From the NCBI RefSeq assembly GCF_027532945.1, contig NZ_JAPZTZ010000020.1, positions 1 to 64,000 of the forward strand: a stretch of 64,000 nucleotides of DNA, given 5' to 3'. The notes beneath the pieces were generated by a model. It worked only from the letters and a program-made list of their open reading frames with translations, had not been told where the DNA came from and did no database searches. The position numbers and the translations under genes were made by a program. Below, in pieces: positions 1-8,920 of the stretch (position 1 is its first letter; each line of letters opens with the position of its first letter). The DNA comes from Phreatobacter sp. (GTDB lineage Bacteria; Pseudomonadota; Alphaproteobacteria; Rhizobiales; Phreatobacteraceae).

Positions 1-369
1 GAGGAAGCTGATCGTGCCGGCCGACGCGTTCGCCGTGAAGGCGAGGCTCTCACCCTTCCAGGACTTGTCCTGACGGGCCTGGCGGACAGCCGACTGCAGC
101 GACTCGACAGCCTTGGTGATCGACTTCAGGCCGTTGTCGGCGGCTTCGAGGGTCTTGATGCCGTTCGACATGCCGTCGAGCAGGGCGCCGAGATCGTTCG
201 AACGCGAGTTGAGCGAGGCGGCCGTGAAGAAGTTGGTCGGGTTGTCGAGGGCCGAGTTGACCTTCTTGCCCGAGGCCAGGCGGCCCTGGATCGTCTCGCG
301 ACCGGAGGCGATGTTCTGGAGAGCGAGGAGGTTCGAACGAACGCCGCGCGAGATGGTGATGTCAGACAT
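1..369 (-). CDS. Flagellin, N-terminal part (cut by window edge)
   Basis: The first 123 codons of a flagellin gene; the rest lies outside the window. The protein begins MSDITISRGVRSNLLALQ and continues with ASGKKVNSALDNPTNFFTA, the conserved D0/D1 helical region that packs in the filament core. The ATG follows an AGGAAAGGG ribosome-binding site. Upstream is a leader with three consecutive stem-loops and an AT-rich region with a CtrA-type box. Flagellins are exported by the flagellar type III system and polymerise outside the cell. It cannot be seen whether more flagellin copies follow or which paralog this is. Confidence 0.93.
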   Translation of the reverse strand, partial: MSDITISRGVRSNLLALQNIASGRETIQGRLASGKKVNSALDNPTNFFTAASLNSRSNDLGALLDGMSNGIKTLEAADNGLKSITKAVESLQSAVRQARQDKSWKGESLAFTANASAGTISFL

Positions 370-615: not shown

Positions 616-978
616 ATGGCCGACATCGTCGCAGACACCGCCCTCCCCGCCCTGGCCGATGGCCCCGGGGCGCAGGAACTTGGCGTCCTCCTGCAGCTCG
701 AGGACGTAGACACGGTGGGCAAGAGCATCGCCTGGCTGGTCCAGGAAATGCTGCTGAAGGGTTTTGACGCCATCAGCCATGCCGATCTTGCTGCGCGGGT
801 GGAGCTGATCCTCGCCGCCATGCCGAGCGCGCGACCGCTGATCCTTGGCATGCAGTTCGCGATCATGGAGGAGGATTTCGCCCTCGCCTTCGATCACGCG
901 GCGCTGCTGGTTGAGCGGGAAAGCGAGCTGATGGCCAGGGCCCTCGCGGCCAAGGCCGGCGGCGGCACCCGCACCTGA
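616..978 (+). CDS. Small protein of unknown function, next to flagellin
   Basis: A 120-residue acidic, Leu/Ala-rich and probably all-helical protein with no signal peptide, membrane segment or motif I recognise. It has a weak AGG ribosome-binding site. The reading frame is placed between a flagellin promoter region and a polysaccharide gene, directly after the CtrA-type box. Its position hints at a cell-cycle or flagellum-linked role, but nothing in the protein itself shows this. A longer antisense frame on the other strand has no recognisable content, so the forward frame is preferred. Confidence 0.6.
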   Translation: MADIVADTALPALADGPGAQELGVLLQLEDVDTVGKSIAWLVQEMLLKGFDAISHADLAARVELILAAMPSARPLILGMQFAIMEEDFALAFDHAALLVERESELMARALAAKAGGGTRT

Positions 979-1023: not shown

Positions 1024-1043
1024 TTTACCATGCGTTTACCATG
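1024..1043 (+). repeat. Tandem TTTACCATG pair, 11-base spacing
   Basis: Two copies of TTTACCATG at 1024-1032 and 1035-1043 are spaced by one helical turn, 40 bases before the start of the cytidylyltransferase gene. The arrangement resembles a two-site operator. The second copy contains the alternative ATG at 1041. Confidence 0.3.
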
Positions 1044-1082
1044 TCCGCCCATCCTCCGCCCCATGCGGACCAGGGGCCATTC

Positions 1083-1889
1083 ATGCGGGTTGTGATTCTC
1101 GCGGGCGGACGGGGCACGCGGATCTCGGAAGAGACCGACGTGAAGCCCAAGCCCATGGTCGATGTCGGCGGCCGGCCGATCCTGTGGCACATCATGCGCC
1201 ACTACGCGGCCCAGGGTTTCGACGACTTCGTTATCGCCGCCGGCTACAAGGCCGACGTCATCAAGCGCTTCTTCCTCGACGAGATGCGCCTCGCCGGTGA
1301 CCTGCTGGTCGATACACGTCACGGCCAGGTCACCCGCACTGGCCCGGTCTTCGACAACTGGCGCGTCCGCATCGTCAATACCGGCCTCGACACCAATACC
1401 GGCGGACGCATCCTGCGCCTGAAGCCCCACCTCGACGGCGCGCCCTTCCTCGTCACCTATGGCGACGGCGTCAGCGACGTGCCCGTTCAGGCGGTGGTCG
1501 CACAGCACCAGGCCCAGGGCCATCTCGCCACCATCACCGCCGTCCATCCGCCCGCTCGCTTCGGTGGCATCCGCTTCGAGGGCGAGGACGTCTCCGGCTT
1601 CGTCGAGAAGCCGCAGATCGGCGAGGGCTGGATCAATGGCGGTTTCGCCGTCTTCGAGCCCGGCGTCTTCGACTATCTCGCCCTCGACGGCGACGACGGC
1701 TCGCTGGAGGTGGCGCTCTATGAGCGGCTCGCCCGCGACGGCAAGCTCGGCGCCTATCGCCACGACGGCTTCTGGCAGTGCGTCGACACGCTGCGTGAGC
1801 TCCGCCTGCTGCAGGGCCTGTGGGACTCCGGCAAGGCGCCCTGGAAAACCTGGATCGACGAGCCCCGCCGCTCCGTCGCCGCAGCGTGA
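1083..1889 (+). CDS. rfbF: Glucose-1-phosphate cytidylyltransferase
   Basis: A 268-residue nucleotidyltransferase that should make CDP-glucose from CTP and glucose-1-phosphate, the first step toward CDP-activated deoxy sugars. It carries the nucleotide-binding LAGGRGTR at residues 6-13, SEET plus KPKPM just after it, PILWHIM, TYGDGV with the metal-binding aspartate, and the family-specific GKAPWKTW near the C-terminus. All of these match enteric RfbF closely, and the length is close to the 257 residues of RfbF. ATG 1083 follows AGGGGCC; an in-frame ATG at 1041 adds 14 residues without homology. It is the first gene of a cassette of four genes with tight spacing. No CDP-glucose 4,6-dehydratase (RfbG) is in the window. 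Confidence 0.9.
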   Translation: MRVVILAGGRGTRISEETDVKPKPMVDVGGRPILWHIMRHYAAQGFDDFVIAAGYKADVIKRFFLDEMRLAGDLLVDTRHGQVTRTGPVFDNWRVRIVNTGLDTNTGGRILRLKPHLDGAPFLVTYGDGVSDVPVQAVVAQHQAQGHLATITAVHPPARFGGIRFEGEDVSGFVEKPQIGEGWINGGFAVFEPGVFDYLALDGDDGSLEVALYERLARDGKLGAYRHDGFWQCVDTLRELRLLQGLWDSGKAPWKTWIDEPRRSVAAA

Positions 1890-1897
1890 GGCAAGCC

Positions 1898-4099
1898 ATG
1901 AAGATCCTGCTCACGGGCCATGCCGGCTATGTCGGCACCGTCGCCACCGCCGTTCTGACGGAAGCTGGCCATGAGGTGATCGGCCTCGACACCGGCTATT
2001 TCGTCCCCTGCCACACCGAGGGCCTGGAGCCCGTGGACCCGGTGCGCACCATCGCCAAGGACGTGCGCGACATCACGGCCGAGGATCTCGCCGGCTTCGA
2101 TGCAGTGGTCCATCTCGCCGCCCTCTCCAACGACCCGATGGGCGACCTCGCTCCCGAACTCACCGCCGCCATCAACCGCGACGCCACCATTGCCCTTGCC
2201 CGCATCGCCAAGGCCGCCGGTGTCACGCGCTTCGTCTTCGCCTCCTCCTGCTCCATCTATGGCGCCGGCAACCCGGACCTGCTCCTCGACGAGAGCGCGC
2301 CGGTCAATCCGCTCACCGCCTATGCCGCGAGCAAAGTGGAGAGCGAGGCGGGGCTGCTTGCCCTCGCCGACGACAGCTTCACCCCCACTTTCATGCGCAA
2401 CGCCACCTGCTACGGCCTGTCGCCGCGGCTGCGCACCGACCTCGTCCTCAACAACCTCGTCGTCTCGGCTCTCTCAACCGGCGAGGTGAAACTGCTCTCC
2501 AGCGGCCTGTCCTGGCGCCCGCTCCTCCATGTGCGCGACCTTGCCCGCGCCGCGGCTGCCATCCTCGCCGCCGATGCCGACACGGTCCGGGGCGAGGCCT
2601 TCAACATCGGCCAGAACAGCGAGAACCACCTCGTCCGCGACATCGCGACCATCGTCGCCGAGGCAGTGCCGGGTTCGCGCGTCACCTTCGCCGAGGGCAA
2701 TACGATCGATCCGCGATCCTATCGCGTCGATTTCGGCAGGTTCGCCGCCGCCTTCCCCGACTTCCGCTTCCTCCACACCGCGGCCTCCGGCGCCAAGGAG
2801 CTGGTGGCCGCCCTCGCCGGCCGCACCACCGCAGACGACCTCAGTGGCCAGCGCTATGTGCGCCTCGCCCGGCTGAAGAGCCTCATGGCGGCAGAAAAGC
2901 TCGCCGAGGACCTCACATGGCGCACGGCGCGCGAGACCACCCCGCTCGGCGTCAAGCGCGAGCGCGTGCCGGTGGCTGGGCCCTCCATCACACAGCGCGA
3001 GGTCGACCTGACGGCCGAGGCGGCGCGTCACGCATGGTTCGAGAACCACGCCAAGTACAACCAGCGCTTCGAGGCGATGGTCGCCGCACAGACCGGCCGC
3101 AAGCACGCCATCTCGCTCGCCCACTGCACTTCGGCCATCCACCTCGCCCTGGTCGGTCTTGGCATCGGTCCGGGCGACGAGGTCATCGTGCCCGAATGCA
3201 CCTGGGTCGCAACCGCCTCGCCGGTGGTGCAGATCGGCGCCAACCCGGTTTTCGTCGACATCGATCCGGTCTCCTGGTGCATGTCGCCGGCGAGCCTTGC
3301 CGCCGCCATCACGCCGAAGACCAAGGCCGCCATCGTCGTCGATCTCTACGGCGGCATGCCGGACTGGGCGCGCCTTGAGACCATCGCCCGCGATGCCGGG
3401 ATCATCCTCATCGAGGACGCGGCGGAAGCCATCGGCTCGCGCTTCCGCGACAAGCCCGCCGGCGCCTTCGGCCGCGCCTCGGTCTTCTCCTTCCACGGCT
3501 CCAAGACGGTCACCACCGGCGAGGGCGGCATGCTCGTCACCGACGACGACGCGCTGGCCGAGCGGGTGAACATCCTGCGCGACCAGGGCCGCCATCCCAC
3601 ATCCCGCGCCCTCGTCACCGAGGAGGTCGGCTTCAAGTACCGGATGTCGGCCATGCAGGCCGCCATGGGCATCGCCCAGATGGAGCGCCTCGACGAGCTC
3701 ATCGCCATGAAGCGCGACATCTTCCGCTTCTATGCCGAGGCCCTCGACGGCACGCCGGGTCTGACGCTCAACGCCGAGCCGCCACACGTCTTCAACACCT
3801 ACTGGATGGTCACGGCCGTCCTTGATCCGAAGCTCGGCCTCCTCAAGCAGCAGGTCGCGGCCGAACTCGGCGCTGAAGGCATCGACACCCGGCCTTTCTT
3901 CTATCCGCTGAGCTGGCAGCCGGCCTTCCGGAGCCAGCCATCGGCGGCGGGCGCGAGCGCCCGCAATACCAACGCCTATGGGATCTCGCCGACGGGCATC
4001 AACCTGCCGAGCGGCTACAACGTCACCCGTGACGTCGCCGCCCGCGTCGCCCGCGGCCTCAAGTCCATCCTCGCGCGCCACGCCCGCCGCGTCGCCTGA
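1898..4099 (+). CDS. SDR epimerase/dehydratase fused to DegT-type aminotransferase
   Basis: One uninterrupted 733-codon frame encodes two normally separate enzymes. Residues 1 to about 345 are an extended SDR with TGHAGYVG (G7, G10, G13) for NAD(P), SSCSIYG at 116-122 and YAASK with Y142 and K146. The serine segment lacks the Asp-Glu pair of 4,6-dehydratases, so an epimerase, reductase or oxidase is more likely. Residues about 365-733 are a DegT/DnrJ/EryC1/StrS PLP aminotransferase with HGSK, in which K536 is the expected Schiff-base lysine, followed by TTGEGG. Together they would oxidise or epimerise a nucleotide sugar and then aminate it. It starts 8 bases after rfbF. An internal in-frame ATG at 2885 could allow a free aminotransferase, but no stop separates the halves. 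Confidence 0.88.
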   Translation: MKILLTGHAGYVGTVATAVLTEAGHEVIGLDTGYFVPCHTEGLEPVDPVRTIAKDVRDITAEDLAGFDAVVHLAALSNDPMGDLAPELTAAINRDATIALARIAKAAGVTRFVFASSCSIYGAGNPDLLLDESAPVNPLTAYAASKVESEAGLLALADDSFTPTFMRNATCYGLSPRLRTDLVLNNLVVSALSTGEVKLLSSGLSWRPLLHVRDLARAAAAILAADADTVRGEAFNIGQNSENHLVRDIATIVAEAVPGSRVTFAEGNTIDPRSYRVDFGRFAAAFPDFRFLHTAASGAKELVAALAGRTTADDLSGQRYVRLARLKSLMAAEKLAEDLTWRTARETTPLGVKRERVPVAGPSITQREVDLTAEAARHAWFENHAKYNQRFEAMVAAQTGRKHAISLAHCTSAIHLALVGLGIGPGDEVIVPECTWVATASPVVQIGANPVFVDIDPVSWCMSPASLAAAITPKTKAAIVVDLYGGMPDWARLETIARDAGIILIEDAAEAIGSRFRDKPAGAFGRASVFSFHGSKTVTTGEGGMLVTDDDALAERVNILRDQGRHPTSRALVTEEVGFKYRMSAMQAAMGIAQMERLDELIAMKRDIFRFYAEALDGTPGLTLNAEPPHVFNTYWMVTAVLDPKLGLLKQQVAAELGAEGIDTRPFFYPLSWQPAFRSQPSAAGASARNTNAYGISPTGINLPSGYNVTRDVAARVARGLKSILARHARRVA

Positions 4100-4113: not shown

Positions 4114-5367
4114 ATGGCCGCCAGCGCCGTCGCCTCGACCACGATCGCCCCCGCAGAAGCGCGGCGGCCGCTGGTCACCATCGCGCTGCCGACCTACAAC
4201 CGCGCGCAATATCTCGACCGCTTCTTCACCCACCACATCCAGGCCTTCGAGGCCCGCGGGATCGATTTCGAGATCCTCGTCTCGGACAACCGGTCGACCG
4301 ATGACACGCCTGCCATCGTCGCGCGCTGGGCCGCGGCCGACCCGCGCATCCGTTCCGTGCGGCAGGTCGAGAATATCGGCGCCTACGGCAACTTCCTCTA
4401 CACCTGGCGCCAGTCGCGCGGCGAGTTCGCCATATGGGTCGGTGACGACGACCTGCTCGTGCCGGACGTCGTCATCTCCTATCTCGGCCGCCTCGCTGCC
4501 GATCCCGACCTCGTCATGGTCCAGGCGCCGTGGATGCTCATCGACGAGACCCGCGACAATGCGGAGATGGGCACCTTCTACCGCATCGCCGGGGAGCGCC
4601 TCTTCCGGCAGGGCGAGCACGCGGCCTGCCTCGACTACATGCTGACCCACCACATCTTCCCCGAATGGTTCATCATCCGGACGAGCGTGGTTCACGACGT
4701 CATCGAGCCGGTCACCCCTTACGCCTTCCACTATTTCGCCCATCTCGCCCGCGCGCTCACCGTCGGCTCGGTGCTCTTCGCGCCGGAGCCCTTCGCCCGC
4801 GTCACGGCCATCTCCAAGGGCGGCGTGAACCATTCCGGCAACAGCGAGACGATGGACGGCTGGGACCGCTTCCGCGGCGGCGTCGAGTTCTTCGCCTCCT
4901 TCATCGAGCCGGCCCCGCTCGCGGACCCCGTGGCCTCGGGGCCCCTGCTCCGCCGTTTCCAGGATTTCACCATTCAGCGGATGCAGGTGGCCATCAAGCT
5001 GCACATCTTCGCCGGCAACTGGAGCCACGCCTATCATCTCGACCGCCGCGTCCGCGCCTATGGCCAGCCCGGCTGTCACCCCGACATGCGTCCGGTCGTG
5101 GCCGGCCTCTGCGCCCTGGAGACGCTGGTGGCGGAAGCCCGCGCCCAGGCCCGCCATCTCGTCGTGCTGGACGACCTCATCGCCGATGACACGCTGGAGA
5201 GCCTGACGCCCAAGGTTCGCGAGGCCTTCATCCGCCGCCGGGACCCGCGTGCCGCCTCGCCGACGCCCAAGGCCTTCGCGCTGATGTCGCCGCCCTCCGC
5301 CGACCTCCTCGGGCCGGACGACATCGTCATCGACCTCCACGCCGCCTTCCGGCGCACGCCCGCCTGA
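4114..5367 (+). CDS. Family 2 glycosyltransferase
   Basis: A 417-residue GT-A fold glycosyltransferase. VTIALPTYNR near residue 25 begins the donor-binding Rossmann half, VSDNRSTDDT follows, and GDDDLL at 110-115 gives the metal/nucleotide-binding DxD (D111-D113). There is no signal peptide or clear transmembrane segment, so it probably acts at the cytosolic face. ATG 4114 has a GGAG site 8 bases upstream and lies 14 bases after the SDR-DegT fusion. It is expected to transfer the sugar made by the preceding enzymes, onto flagellin, LPS or another glycan. The acceptor is unknown. Confidence 0.88.
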   Translation: MAASAVASTTIAPAEARRPLVTIALPTYNRAQYLDRFFTHHIQAFEARGIDFEILVSDNRSTDDTPAIVARWAAADPRIRSVRQVENIGAYGNFLYTWRQSRGEFAIWVGDDDLLVPDVVISYLGRLAADPDLVMVQAPWMLIDETRDNAEMGTFYRIAGERLFRQGEHAACLDYMLTHHIFPEWFIIRTSVVHDVIEPVTPYAFHYFAHLARALTVGSVLFAPEPFARVTAISKGGVNHSGNSETMDGWDRFRGGVEFFASFIEPAPLADPVASGPLLRRFQDFTIQRMQVAIKLHIFAGNWSHAYHLDRRVRAYGQPGCHPDMRPVVAGLCALETLVAEARAQARHLVVLDDLIADDTLESLTPKVREAFIRRRDPRAASPTPKAFALMSPPSADLLGPDDIVIDLHAAFRRTPA

Positions 5368-5368
5368 C

Positions 5369-6133
5369 ATGAGCTGGACGCTCGCGGGCAATTCCGGCGC
5401 GCGGCTCGTCATCCGGCCGACGCCCTGGGACGCTCGCGCCCTCGGCCGGCCGACCCTCGACATCACGGAGGCTGCGCTGGCAGGCGATGAAGGCATCACC
5501 GACGATGCCGATGTCATCACCGCCTTCCACCGCCTCTGCGGCGAAGAGCAGGCGGGGCTGGTGACCTGCCGCCTGCCCGCCGAGCGCCGCGCCGCCATCG
5601 CCCGGCTCCAGGCCATCGGCTTCCGCTATGTCGAGACGGTCCAGACCCTGCGCTTTCCCAACCTCGCCCGCTTCGCGCCGTCCTGCCGGCCGGCGCCGTT
5701 GCGGACACCCACCGCCGAGGATCACCCCGCTTTGATCGCGCAGGCCGCCGAGACCTTCCATTTCGGCCGCTTCGCCGAGGACCCGGCCATCCCGGCGGAG
5801 GTGAACCAGCTCCGGCAGGTCGACTGGATGGAAGGGCTGCTCGCCGGCCGCGCGACGGTGCTCGTCACCGGCGCCGCGCAGCGCCCTGGCGCCTTCATGG
5901 CCTTTACGACCGCGGACGGCTCGGCCGACCTCGTGCTCGGCGGAACGCAGCCCGACCAGGCCGTGCTCGCCCTGCCCTTCTGGACGGCGGTTCTGTTGCA
6001 CCTTAAGGACCAGGGCGTCCGCCGCATCGACACGGTCGTCTCCGCCGCCAATATCGGTGTCGCCAACCTCTATGCCCGCCTCGGCTTCCAGCTGACCGGC
6101 ACGCTGGTCGGCCTGCACCTGCACCGCCCCTGA
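5369..6133 (+). CDS. GNAT N-acyltransferase, RffC/FdtC-like
   Basis: A 254-residue protein with a C-terminal GNAT acetyltransferase domain (about residues 110-250) that ends in VSAANIGVANLYARLGFQ, the typical last helix and strand of the fold. The overall design resembles enzymes that N-acetylate nucleotide-linked amino sugars. It begins one base after the glycosyltransferase stop codon, so the two are almost certainly co-translated. In this cassette its likely job is to acylate the amino group put on by the DegT domain. Substrate and acyl donor cannot be read from sequence. Confidence 0.78.
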   Translation: MSWTLAGNSGARLVIRPTPWDARALGRPTLDITEAALAGDEGITDDADVITAFHRLCGEEQAGLVTCRLPAERRAAIARLQAIGFRYVETVQTLRFPNLARFAPSCRPAPLRTPTAEDHPALIAQAAETFHFGRFAEDPAIPAEVNQLRQVDWMEGLLAGRATVLVTGAAQRPGAFMAFTTADGSADLVLGGTQPDQAVLALPFWTAVLLHLKDQGVRRIDTVVSAANIGVANLYARLGFQLTGTLVGLHLHRP

Positions 6134-6196: not shown

Positions 6197-8920
6197 TCAC
6201 TGCGGCGCCTGGGTGTTCTGCTGATTGAGCAGGTCGGTGATCCGGCGCAGCGTCACGCGCCGGTTCTCCGCCGAGGGCCCCTGCGTCTGCACCTTAAGGT
6301 TCTGCTCGCCATAGCCCTGGGTGGTCAGGTTCTCCGGCGGGATGTTGTAGGTCTGGGTCAGGGCCGTCGCGATGGACTGGGCGCGCCGGTCCGACAGCGA
6401 CAGGTTGTCGACATCGTTGCCCACCGCATCCGTGTGGCCCTCGACGAGGAAGACCTCGTTCGGATTGGCGGTGATGGCCCGGCCGAGCGCCGCCGCGATC
6501 GTGTCGAGGCGCCGGACCTGGTCGGGCTTGATTTCCCACGACCCGGTATCGAAGGTGATCGTGTTGACGTCGACGCTGCGGGTATAGGCGCGCACCGTCG
6601 GGCTGTAGCGCACCTCGTCGAGCGTGTAGCGGCGCGGCGGACGCTGCACCAGCGGCGCACTCAGCGTCTCGTAGATCACCTCCGGCGTCGCCTCCTCGGC
6701 ATCGACGATGTAGCGGTTGCGCGGGAACGAATATTCCGGAGGCGGCAGCTCGATGATCTGTTCCTCGAAGGTGCGGGGACGCGGCCGGAACGAGTTGTCG
6801 ATCAGGATCACCTCGCGCCCGTCGGGATAGCGGCGGATGCGGCGCACCAGCTCGCCACTCTCGTCGGTGACGGTGATGACACGCACGCCGTCCGGCCGGT
6901 CGAAGACCGACACCATCTCATTGCCGCGGCGCTCGGAGCGGAAATTGCCGCCGAGCTCGCGGAAGCGCGCGGTCTCGTCGTGACGGATGAAGGTGCCCTC
7001 GCCGTCCCGGATGATGGTGCGGCCGGGCTCGTGAATGACCGTGACGCCGTCCTGGGTGAACTCGCGGCGACTGTCGCGGATCTCATCGACACGCTCGGCG
7101 CGCGCGCCCCGGCTCAGCATGAAGCCGCCGACAAGGCCGGCGCCGATGCCGATGGCGGCGGCACCCGCCGGGCCGATGCGCGAACCGCGCCGCTGCTCGG
7201 GCGGCCCCTGGCGCGGCGGCAAGCCGGTAAAGCCTCCGGGCACGCCCGTACCGGGCTGGCCGGGCTGGCCCTGGAAGCCGCCGGGAGCCCCGGGTCCACC
7301 GGGCCGCTGCTGGCCAAAGCCCTGGCCCGGAATGGCGGGAGACGGAGCCGGACCACCGGTCTGCGGCTGGTTGGGAAGACCGGGCGGCTGGGCCGGACCG
7401 CCGATCTGCGGCTGACCGGGCTGGCCGGGCGGCCGGGCGGGACCACCGACCTGCGGCTGGCCGGGCTGGCCGGGCGGCTGGGCGGGACCACCGATCTGCG
7501 GCTGACCGGGCTGGCTGGGCGGCTGGGCGGGACCACCGACCTGCGGCTGGCCCGGCTGGCTGGGCGGCTGGGCGGGACCACCGACCTGCGGCTGGCCCGG
7601 CTGGCCAGGAACGACGCCAGGCGGGCGCTGTCCGATCGGCGGCTGGCCGGGCGGCAGGGCCGGACCACCGGTCTGCGGCTGACCGGGCTGGCCGGGCGGC
7701 TGGGCGGTGCCACCGACCTGCGGCTGGCCCGGCTGGCCGGGAACGACGCCGGGCGGGCGCTGGCCGATCGGCGGCTGGCCGGTCGGCGGCTGCTGCGCGC
7801 CACCGGTCTGCGGCTGGCCCGGCTGGCCGGGAACCACGCCCGGAGGGCGCTGTCCGATCGGCGGCTGGCCGGGCGGCTGGGCCGGACCACCGGTCTGCGG
7901 CTGGCCCGGCTGTCCTGGAACCACGCCCGGCGGGCGCTGTCCGATCGGCGACTGCCCCGTCGGCGGCTGCTGGGCGCCACCGGTCTGCGGCTGAGCGGAC
8001 TGGCCGGGGACCACGCCCGGCGGGCGCTGCCCGATCGGCGGCTGGCCGGTCGGCGGCTGCTGCGCGCCACCCGTCTGCGGCTGACCGGGCTGGCCGGGGA
8101 CCACGCCAGGCGGGCGCTGGCCGATGGGAGGCTGGCCGGCAGGCGGCTGCTGCGCGCCACCGGTCTGGGGAACGGCGCCCGGACGCTGCACAGGCGGCTG
8201 TGCCGACTGGCCGGGCGAATTGCCGCCGAAAGGCGGGCGGCCGTCCTGCGGCCGGATGGCACCCGGCGTTGGGCGCTGGCTCTCGCCTGAGGTGGCGGGC
8301 GGGACGGGACGGCCCTGCTGCGGCTGCCCCAGGCCCGGGCGCGGCGGCTGGCCGGCGCCGGGCTGCTGACCCTGGCCTGGCGGCTGGCCGGTGAAGCCGG
8401 GGCTGCGCGGCGGCTGCGCACCGGCCGGGGGGTTCACCCGCGGCGCCGTCGGCTGGGTCGGCTGGGCGATCGGTGGTGCGGTCCGTTGGGGCTGCTGAGA
8501 CTGGACCGGGGGCGCAAGCCGCTGCTGCTGCGGCGGCTGGGCCTGGACGGGCGGACGCTGCTGAATGGGCGGACGCTGCTGGATGGGCGGCGCCTGCCGC
8601 TCCGGCTGCACCTGACGCTGCGGCTGCTGCATCGGGGCGACGGGCGGGCGCGGCTGCTGAACCTGACCGCCACCGCCCATGCCGCCCTGGGGCGGGCGCG
8701 GTTGCTGGACCTGACCGCCGCCACCGGGCGCGCGGCCCTCCGGCGGACGGCCCGGCTGGCCCTGTCCTCCCGGCCGCTGCTGGCGCGGATCGCGCTCCTG
8801 CTGCGGGTTGAGCTGAGCGACCTCAAGGCGCCCCGACGGCAGGGTCTCGGCGAGGCCGGGAGCCATGGCGAGAACCGGCAGGAACGTGCCGGCCAGCAGG
8901 GCGCGCTTCAGGGCGTTCAT
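6197..8920 (-). CDS. OmpA-family protein with long Pro/Gln/Gly-rich repeat region
   Basis: A 907-residue exported protein. Residues 1-24 are a signal peptide ending in GLAE. About 30-560 are extremely rich in P, Q and G, with a 13-residue [13 protein letters not shown] block six times and about 15-residue blocks of the type [16 protein letters not shown] glycine-rich hydrophobic stretch (about 590) precedes a charged region. Residues 782-907 form an OmpA-like peptidoglycan-binding domain with VEGHTDAVG and LSDRRAQ. OmpA domains bind meso-diaminopimelate in peptidoglycan, so this should anchor a flexible extended tether in the envelope. ATG 8920 has GGAG upstream. The repeats make length variation between strains likely. 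Confidence 0.85.
7378..8170 (-). repeat. In-gene tandem repeats encoding Pro/Gln/Gly blocks
   Basis: Imperfect direct repeats of about 45 and 90 bases lie within the OmpA-type gene. At DNA level they show as repeated ggctggccgggcggctggg and gggcgctgtccgatcggcgg. They keep frame (multiples of three) and code for the peptide blocks described under that gene. Boundaries are approximate. Confidence 0.8.

Follow-up and report, generated by a model that had tools for sequence, protein, structure and literature searches.

A fixed fusion of an extended SDR and a DegT-family aminotransferase in Phreatobacter, predicted to act on a nucleotide sugar beside flagellin genes

Does one open reading frame near the start of a Phreatobacter contig truly encode two sugar-nucleotide enzymes on a single chain and, if so, what might the two make together? 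The window, that is the whole stretch of 64,000 nucleotides that was analysed (contig NZ_JAPZTZ010000020.1 of assembly GCF_027532945.1, positions 1 to 64,000), carries a 733-codon frame at 1898-4099 on the forward strand, which opens with the ATG at 1898, closes with the TGA ending at 4099 and contains zero internal stops. An earlier sequence-only reading had described this frame as an in-frame fusion of a short-chain dehydrogenase/reductase (SDR) with a DegT aminotransferase in which no stop separates the halves and both active sites are intact. Its coordinates, length and residues were all found to be correct, Y142 and K146 of the SDR half and K536 of the aminotransferase half being intact. 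The features of the locus are as follows.

1-369, reverse strand: flagellin, cut by the contig start; matches the 364-367-aa flagellins found by the cluster in relatives
616-978, forward strand: FlbT-like small gene (PF07378, 20.0 bits, below the cut-off of 27; its ortholog in locus L061 scores 25.5 bits)
1041-1889, forward strand: glucose-1-phosphate cytidylyltransferase-like gene (RfbF; TIGR02623, 306.6 bits, cut-off 300.25); the true start may be at about 1083
1898-2932, forward strand: N-terminal half of the fusion, residues 1-345, an extended SDR and Cj1427-like putative sugar-nucleotide C4-dehydrogenase (PF01370, 18-row alignment, Cj1427 by profile and fold)
2909-2965, forward strand: junction or linker, residues 338-356 (lowest identity at 345-356, dN/dS 0.39, lowest pLDDT at 351-353)
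2966-4099, forward strand: C-terminal half of the fusion, a DegT/DnrJ/EryC1/StrS aminotransferase with PLP lysine K536 (PF01041; nearest solved relative GDP-perosamine synthase)
4114-5367, forward strand: family 2 glycosyltransferase (GT2; PF00535, 71.6 bits)
5369-6133, forward strand: putative WecD-like N-acyltransferase (weak match to the dTDP-4-amino-4,6-dideoxygalactose acyltransferase model, E 7e-5, 22.7 bits of 219)
6197-8920, reverse strand: OmpA-family protein of 907 aa with a long proline/glutamine/glycine-rich repeat region

A Pfam search of the 733-residue fusion protein placed PF01370 (Epimerase) over residues 3-238 with 140.6 bits and PF01041 (DegT_DnrJ_EryC1) over residues 363-721 with 348.2 bits, against a gathering cut-off of 19.8. 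In the 18-row alignment most free SDR relatives terminated no more than a few residues from window residue 345 (L038 being one that runs clearly beyond it), and the free aminotransferase rows that begin with Met started at about window residues 349-355. These ends and starts locate the junction where it had originally been put, at the point where free SDR homologs end, and they indicate that both domains look complete and are joined by a linker of only about 10 residues. Structure prediction for the full fusion gave a mean pLDDT of 91.2, with its minimum at residues 351-353 in the linker, and a pTM of 0.58; the model is one of two predicted sound domains whose relative placement is left unfixed by that pTM. 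It had also been suggested that an internal ATG at 2885 (M330) might serve to make a free aminotransferase. Five of the eight intact orthologs have ATG at this codon, two have ATC and one has CTC; the codon also sits inside the SDR tail common to free relatives. It is thus unsupported as a start, and a free aminotransferase initiated there was rejected.

The same uninterrupted frame over residues 1-733 was recovered by a 61-genome scan in 8 of the 12 genomes of the genus, the window's own included, at 83-100% identity. Each ortholog is exactly 733 codons long and aligns without indel. The gene is missing from three of the 12 (G003, G007 and G009), and a ninth copy, in G001 (L067, G001:C455 about 1789-1978), has its frame interrupted near residues 53-64, towards the start of the SDR half; by its coordinates this copy is about 38 nt short (a short deletion), and it comes from a draft genome of about 480 contigs. 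The window likewise derives from a draft assembly and, together with the broken frame of G001, this could be taken to suggest an assembly artefact or an unfixed mutation that makes one frame of what are really two genes. Such an explanation is nevertheless extremely improbable, as eight separate genomes, among them the single-contig genome G008, share an identical frame length with no stop, and as the dN/dS of the junction is below 1.

Mean pairwise identity among the eight orthologs was 88% over SDR residues 1-310, 69% over the SDR tail (311-344), 62% over residues 345-356 and 91% over the aminotransferase, while pooled dN/dS over the 28 pairs was 0.17 for SDR residues 1-337, 0.39 for the junction (338-356) and 0.12 for aminotransferase residues 357-722. 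The junction is loose yet constrained as protein and evolves as coding sequence; a sequencing error at this place was rejected on the basis of that value and of the eight orthologs of equal length. In trees of both halves (47 rows each, with the SDR of locus L115 entered twice, leaving 46 different) the eight fusions formed a single clade with 100/100 support. A scan of named genomes gave fused loci in 6 of 18 cases (four Phreatobacter, one Rhizobiales bacterium and one Proteobacteria isolate, PHREA1), the remaining 12 loci matching one half only. The fusion is, with practical certainty, real, fixed and conserved across a Phreatobacter clade. The first claim made for this locus, a genuine fixed fusion of two enzymes expected to act in sequence on a nucleotide sugar, was therefore borne out, and relatives do not show only separate genes at this place, since the genus carries the fusion.

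Outside the genus, no second match that covers most of both halves without a stop was listed at E <= 1e-60 in the samples from the order (397 genomes), the class (385) and the phylum (398), sets that overlap and in which the best two candidates were scored per genome, such that remote SDR-DegT fusions could be missed. Confinement of the fusion to the genus holds for the genomes sampled. Some stop-free aminotransferase matches reach back only into the SDR tail (G154 from residue 311 and G081 from residue 328). Matches spanning both halves with a stop were seen in G163, G428 and G057; in the first two the spanning match consists of two adjacent genes, and at the G057 locus (L077) only the aminotransferase was recognised. 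Among 1092 matched plasmid records, 10 reach 80% query coverage, in every case across at least two annotated genes, and the two that were inspected both hold separate genes, one of them in the order aminotransferase-SDR. None of the 105 matched phage records reaches that coverage and no relative of the fusion was found in viral contigs. A phage or plasmid origin was rejected on these grounds. No published SDR-aminotransferase fusion was recognisable in a literature search that covered titles and the beginnings of abstracts and few subscription papers.

We then turn to the kind of reaction that each half may catalyse. The PF01370 match, a glycine-rich start and the Y-x3-K dyad (Y142 and K146, each conserved in every one of the 18 rows) mark the N-terminal half as an extended SDR. 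Residues S116, C118, S119 and Y121 are also invariant in all 18 rows, and this S-C-S stretch replaces the Asp-Lys/Asp-Glu couple: C118-S119 occupy the couple position, which is D-K in four of four CDP-glucose dehydratases and D-E in E. coli RfbB. Asp-Lys and Asp-Glu are the acid/base couples named for dehydratases in a review (PMC8987622). Because the couple is absent, the SDR half is unlikely to be a dehydratase. Of the original label “epimerase/dehydratase” the assignment to the SDRs thus stands and the dehydratase part is unlikely to hold, the C4-dehydrogenase Cj1427 being nearest. It could still be supposed, close to what the sequence-only reading had in mind, that the SDR half acts as a 4,6-dehydratase through an atypical active site and that its product would be turned into a 4-amino-4,6-dideoxy sugar; the LegB and dTDP-glucose dehydratase models of NCBIfam match the fusion weakly, and relatives of the aminotransferase half often lie near CDP-glucose 4,6-dehydratases. 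We consider this quite unlikely in view of the missing couple and its invariant replacement, and of the 20-23 bits that TIGR02622 gives the fusion in the five genomes for which a match was listed, against a cut-off of 278. The window protein itself was absent from the TIGR02622 matches listed in the genus scan, and TIGR02622 was absent from the 25 of 31 NCBIfam families listed for it, and a CDP-glucose 4,6-dehydratase above cut-off was detected in one of the 12 genus genomes, G003, which is without the fusion.

The SDR family profile ranked Cj1427 first among solved relatives with 182 bits, the next scoring 122. A fold search with the model of the SDR half (pLDDT 93.7) returned Cj1427 at ranks 1-5, followed by a 5,6-dehydratase and epimerases; the closeness of these other folds counts against reading the half as a CDP-hexose C4-dehydrogenase. 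Like the SDR half, Cj1427 (PDB 6vo6/6vo8) has the S-P-R-x-R-x-D-L stretch and the Y-x3-K dyad and is without the dehydratase couple, which is N-S in Cj1427. It differs in being a single-domain enzyme for a GDP-heptose substrate, with 27-29% identity in the fold match, and the motif before YG is not shared (N-T-N-S-G-Y-G in Cj1427 versus S-S-C-S-x-Y-G in the SDR family of the window). Overall, the SDR half looks most like a C4-dehydrogenase.

In the DegT family the PLP lysine is a His in dehydrase members, and all 16 aminotransferase rows have a lysine at the position of K536. GDP-perosamine synthase (PDB 3bn1, 3dr4 and 3dr7) is the nearest solved relative of the aminotransferase half by profile (421 bits) and also by fold (38-39% identity, TM 0.95 by target length). 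It is, however, unfused and acts on a GDP sugar, whereas the fusion has a cytidylyltransferase as its neighbour; the GDP substrate of this nearest relative counts against a CDP substrate for the fusion, as does the RfbF score, which is only just over its cut-off. The half falls below every curated NCBIfam equivalog cut-off (LegC, PseC, ArnB, DesI, WecE and RfbH), the best being LegC with 275.8 of 420. Around 36 distinct aminotransferase relatives of at least 42% identity, at loci chosen from best hits and in some cases fetched with flanks of only 1.5 kb, either strand of the stretch carried RfbF in 16 and a C-methyltransferase in 19, and all five SDRs chosen near such aminotransferase genes were CDP-glucose 4,6-dehydratases above cut-off. 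The RfbF, methyltransferase and dehydratase neighbours place relatives of both halves in CDP-keto-sugar clusters.

For the SDR half we collected 38 distinct free relatives of at least 39% identity, again at loci chosen from best hits, 36 of which had at least 1.5 kb on both sides; here and in the count for the aminotransferase relatives, each kind of neighbour was identified through a BLAST comparison with a single reference, which leaves distant ones unseen. RfbF lies immediately 5' in 14 of the 36 and a C-methyltransferase immediately 3' in 13, with both present in 10. Three other genomes of the class carry the SDR and the C-methyltransferase (PF08421 and PF08484) in one frame, at L073:6080-9070 on the reverse strand, L074:7705-10089 on the forward strand and L126:5184-7523 on the reverse strand; these fusions fall in a clade apart from that of the window (100/99). 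A keto sugar is required by C-methyltransferases and by aminotransferases alike. The two kinds of partner therefore point to a keto-forming SDR. A recognisable aminotransferase was found within 150 nt of 2 of the 38 SDR relatives. At L115:3-3545 on the forward strand an SDR is followed 9 nt later by a PseC-like aminotransferase, with a WecD-like acyltransferase coming next and a glycosyltransferase-like frame last; with these separate genes the locus, which is cut by the contig end, is an unfused counterpart of the cluster in the window. At L080:3-5767 on the reverse strand RfbF, a C-methyltransferase, a formyltransferase, an aminotransferase and an SDR lie together on one contig; here the aminotransferase precedes the SDR, in reverse order to the halves of the fusion, with a 13-nt overlap, and the SDR is cut by the contig end.

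These neighbourhoods bear on how the fusion arose and on what the SDR half does. Loss of a stop codon between two old neighbours, as first proposed, may have occurred, but it is not the picture given by the fetched relatives, an aminotransferase being a rare neighbour and a C-methyltransferase the frequent one. As a conjecture, a cluster in the order SDR, methyltransferase, aminotransferase may have lost its middle gene; no intact intermediate of this order was found among the loci fetched. The C-methyltransferase Pfam family was undetected in eight of the nine genomes with the fusion gene, G004 having one hit elsewhere in the genome, and G009, without the fusion, has two hits. With regard to activity, the SDR half might instead be a 4-epimerase, with the aminotransferase drawing its keto sugar from another source (GDP-4-keto-6-deoxymannose, for instance) and the two steps non-consecutive. 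UDP-sugar 4-epimerases are among the close folds, GalE is the best SDR-type NCBIfam model for the fusion, although far below cut-off (72 bits of 262), and the aminotransferase half is nearest to GDP-perosamine synthase. A cytidylyltransferase adjoins the gene in nine of nine fusion-gene genomes, however, and several SDR relatives stand directly before, or are fused to, C-methyltransferases with their need for a keto sugar. We regard the 4-epimerase as unlikely, and the predicted function of the fusion is likely that of a C4-dehydrogenase plus 4-aminotransferase on a CDP-hexose.

Where such a sugar would go is suggested by the surrounding genes. The RfbF stop lies 8 nt 5' of the fusion ATG and GT2 starts 14 nt 3' of the fusion end. 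In the window and eight relatives the order is the same: flagellin gene(s) on the opposite strand, the FlbT-like gene, the RfbF-like gene, the fusion, GT2, the WecD-like gene (which in the window had no Pfam match at E 0.001), then the OmpA-family gene and LivM-LivH on the other strand. Within this order the fusion is broken in L067 and the L062 contig ends inside the OmpA gene. GT2 shares its distribution exactly with the fusion gene (9 of 12 genus genomes) and adjoins it, and this RfbF copy is restricted to these nine, with paralogs of 62-63% in seven of them and of 49% in G003. In the window's genome the second, 62-63% identical cytidylyltransferase paralog (L159:8124-8933, reverse strand, G000:C34) lies beside methylmalonyl-CoA mutase genes and not beside recognised sugar genes. 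LivH is present in all 12 genomes; the surroundings of LivM-LivH in G003, G007 and G009 showed no recognisable cluster and no recognisable OmpA gene.

Flagellin genes lie beside the cluster in all nine genomes that have it, namely those of the window and the eight relatives. The type that accompanies it is short, 364-367 aa with 82-94% identity, and is present as fragments where a contig ends; one of the cluster-side flagellins of the relatives has both Flagellin_N and Flagellin_C. In the three genomes without the cluster the flagellin matches listed were of 43-59% only, those of G007 being 394-406 aa long, and the genomes with the fusion also carry a longer flagellin elsewhere. Several relatives have two or three similar flagellins in a row, which may have broken the window's assembly at the contig start. 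A canonical FlbT is encoded elsewhere in all 12 genus genomes, and a weak second copy is listed in six, the window's own not among them. Cluster position and co-occurrence with the short flagellins lead us to favour flagellin as the acceptor, and by this link the locus is likely a flagellin glycosylation cluster in Phreatobacter. A literature search returned nothing on Phreatobacter together with flagellin or glycosylation. The sugar could alternatively be destined for lipopolysaccharide or another surface glycan, as the OmpA-family gene after the cluster and the relatives of both halves in other sugar-gene contexts, where flagellins were not noted, might suggest. This destination is somewhat unlikely given the flagellins and the FlbT-like gene that flank the cluster in the window and eight relatives, and the distinct short flagellin type that accompanies it.

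Taken together, these data allowed us to propose a plausible pathway, for which we infer activity, substrate and acceptor. The RfbF-like cytidylyltransferase would make a CDP-hexose, and the SDR half would oxidise its C4 to give a CDP-4-keto-hexose with the 6-hydroxyl kept. The tethered aminotransferase half, with the keto sugar held close to this second active site by the fusion, would then introduce nitrogen from glutamate as an amino group at C4. The putative acyltransferase would cap the amine and the glycosyltransferase would transfer the sugar, most likely onto the neighbouring flagellins. On balance, we lean towards this scheme of a CDP-hexose C4-dehydrogenase/4-aminotransferase whose amino sugar is capped and passed to flagellin.

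Known systems suggest how the cofactors might be balanced. Cj1427 is a GDP-heptose C4-dehydrogenase whose NADH is re-oxidised by 2-oxoglutarate (PMC10680097), and WbpB is reported to take 2-oxoglutarate as NADH oxidant in one organism (PMC10622841). WbpB and WbpE are successive enzymes, a dehydrogenase followed by an aminotransferase, and offer a model for a closed cofactor loop. They are, on the other hand, two proteins that act at C3 of a UDP sugar, and WbpB belongs to another fold family. Should the SDR half behave as Cj1427 does, its NADH would also be re-oxidised by the 2-oxoglutarate that the aminotransferase sets free, and a closed 2-oxoglutarate/NADH loop modelled on Cj1427 and on WbpB/WbpE is plausible. 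Its full form, a self-contained redox-neutral amination in which CDP-hexose and L-glutamate would yield CDP-4-amino-4-deoxyhexose plus 2-hydroxyglutarate and a single chain would cycle both the keto sugar and the cofactor, is put forward tentatively and is rather doubtful. Titles and the beginnings of abstracts gave no report of such a route to a CDP-4-amino-4-deoxyhexose with the 6-hydroxyl kept.

Chains that combine sugar-nucleotide steps have precedents. In the SDR-C-methyltransferase proteins of L073, L074 and L126 the same SDR family is joined to the next enzyme of its cluster, the partner being a different one. Two or more sugar-nucleotide steps on one chain are described for plant and viral rhamnose synthases (PMC8987622) and are reported for FKP; the rhamnose synthases and FKP combine other enzyme pairs and include no aminotransferase. 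Each half of the Phreatobacter protein is a familiar kind of enzyme, and the whole is no new kind either. It joins, in a natural and fixed form, the apparent keto-forming and amine-forming steps of amino-sugar synthesis, the other such pairs found being separate genes. With it, substrate channelling could be examined in a single protein, as could the recycling of NADH by 2-oxoglutarate that is known from Cj1427 and WbpB, and the fusion may be a single-enzyme catalyst for CDP-amino sugars. More broadly, it points to an uncharacterised SDR family that adjoins cytidylyltransferase and C-methyltransferase genes.
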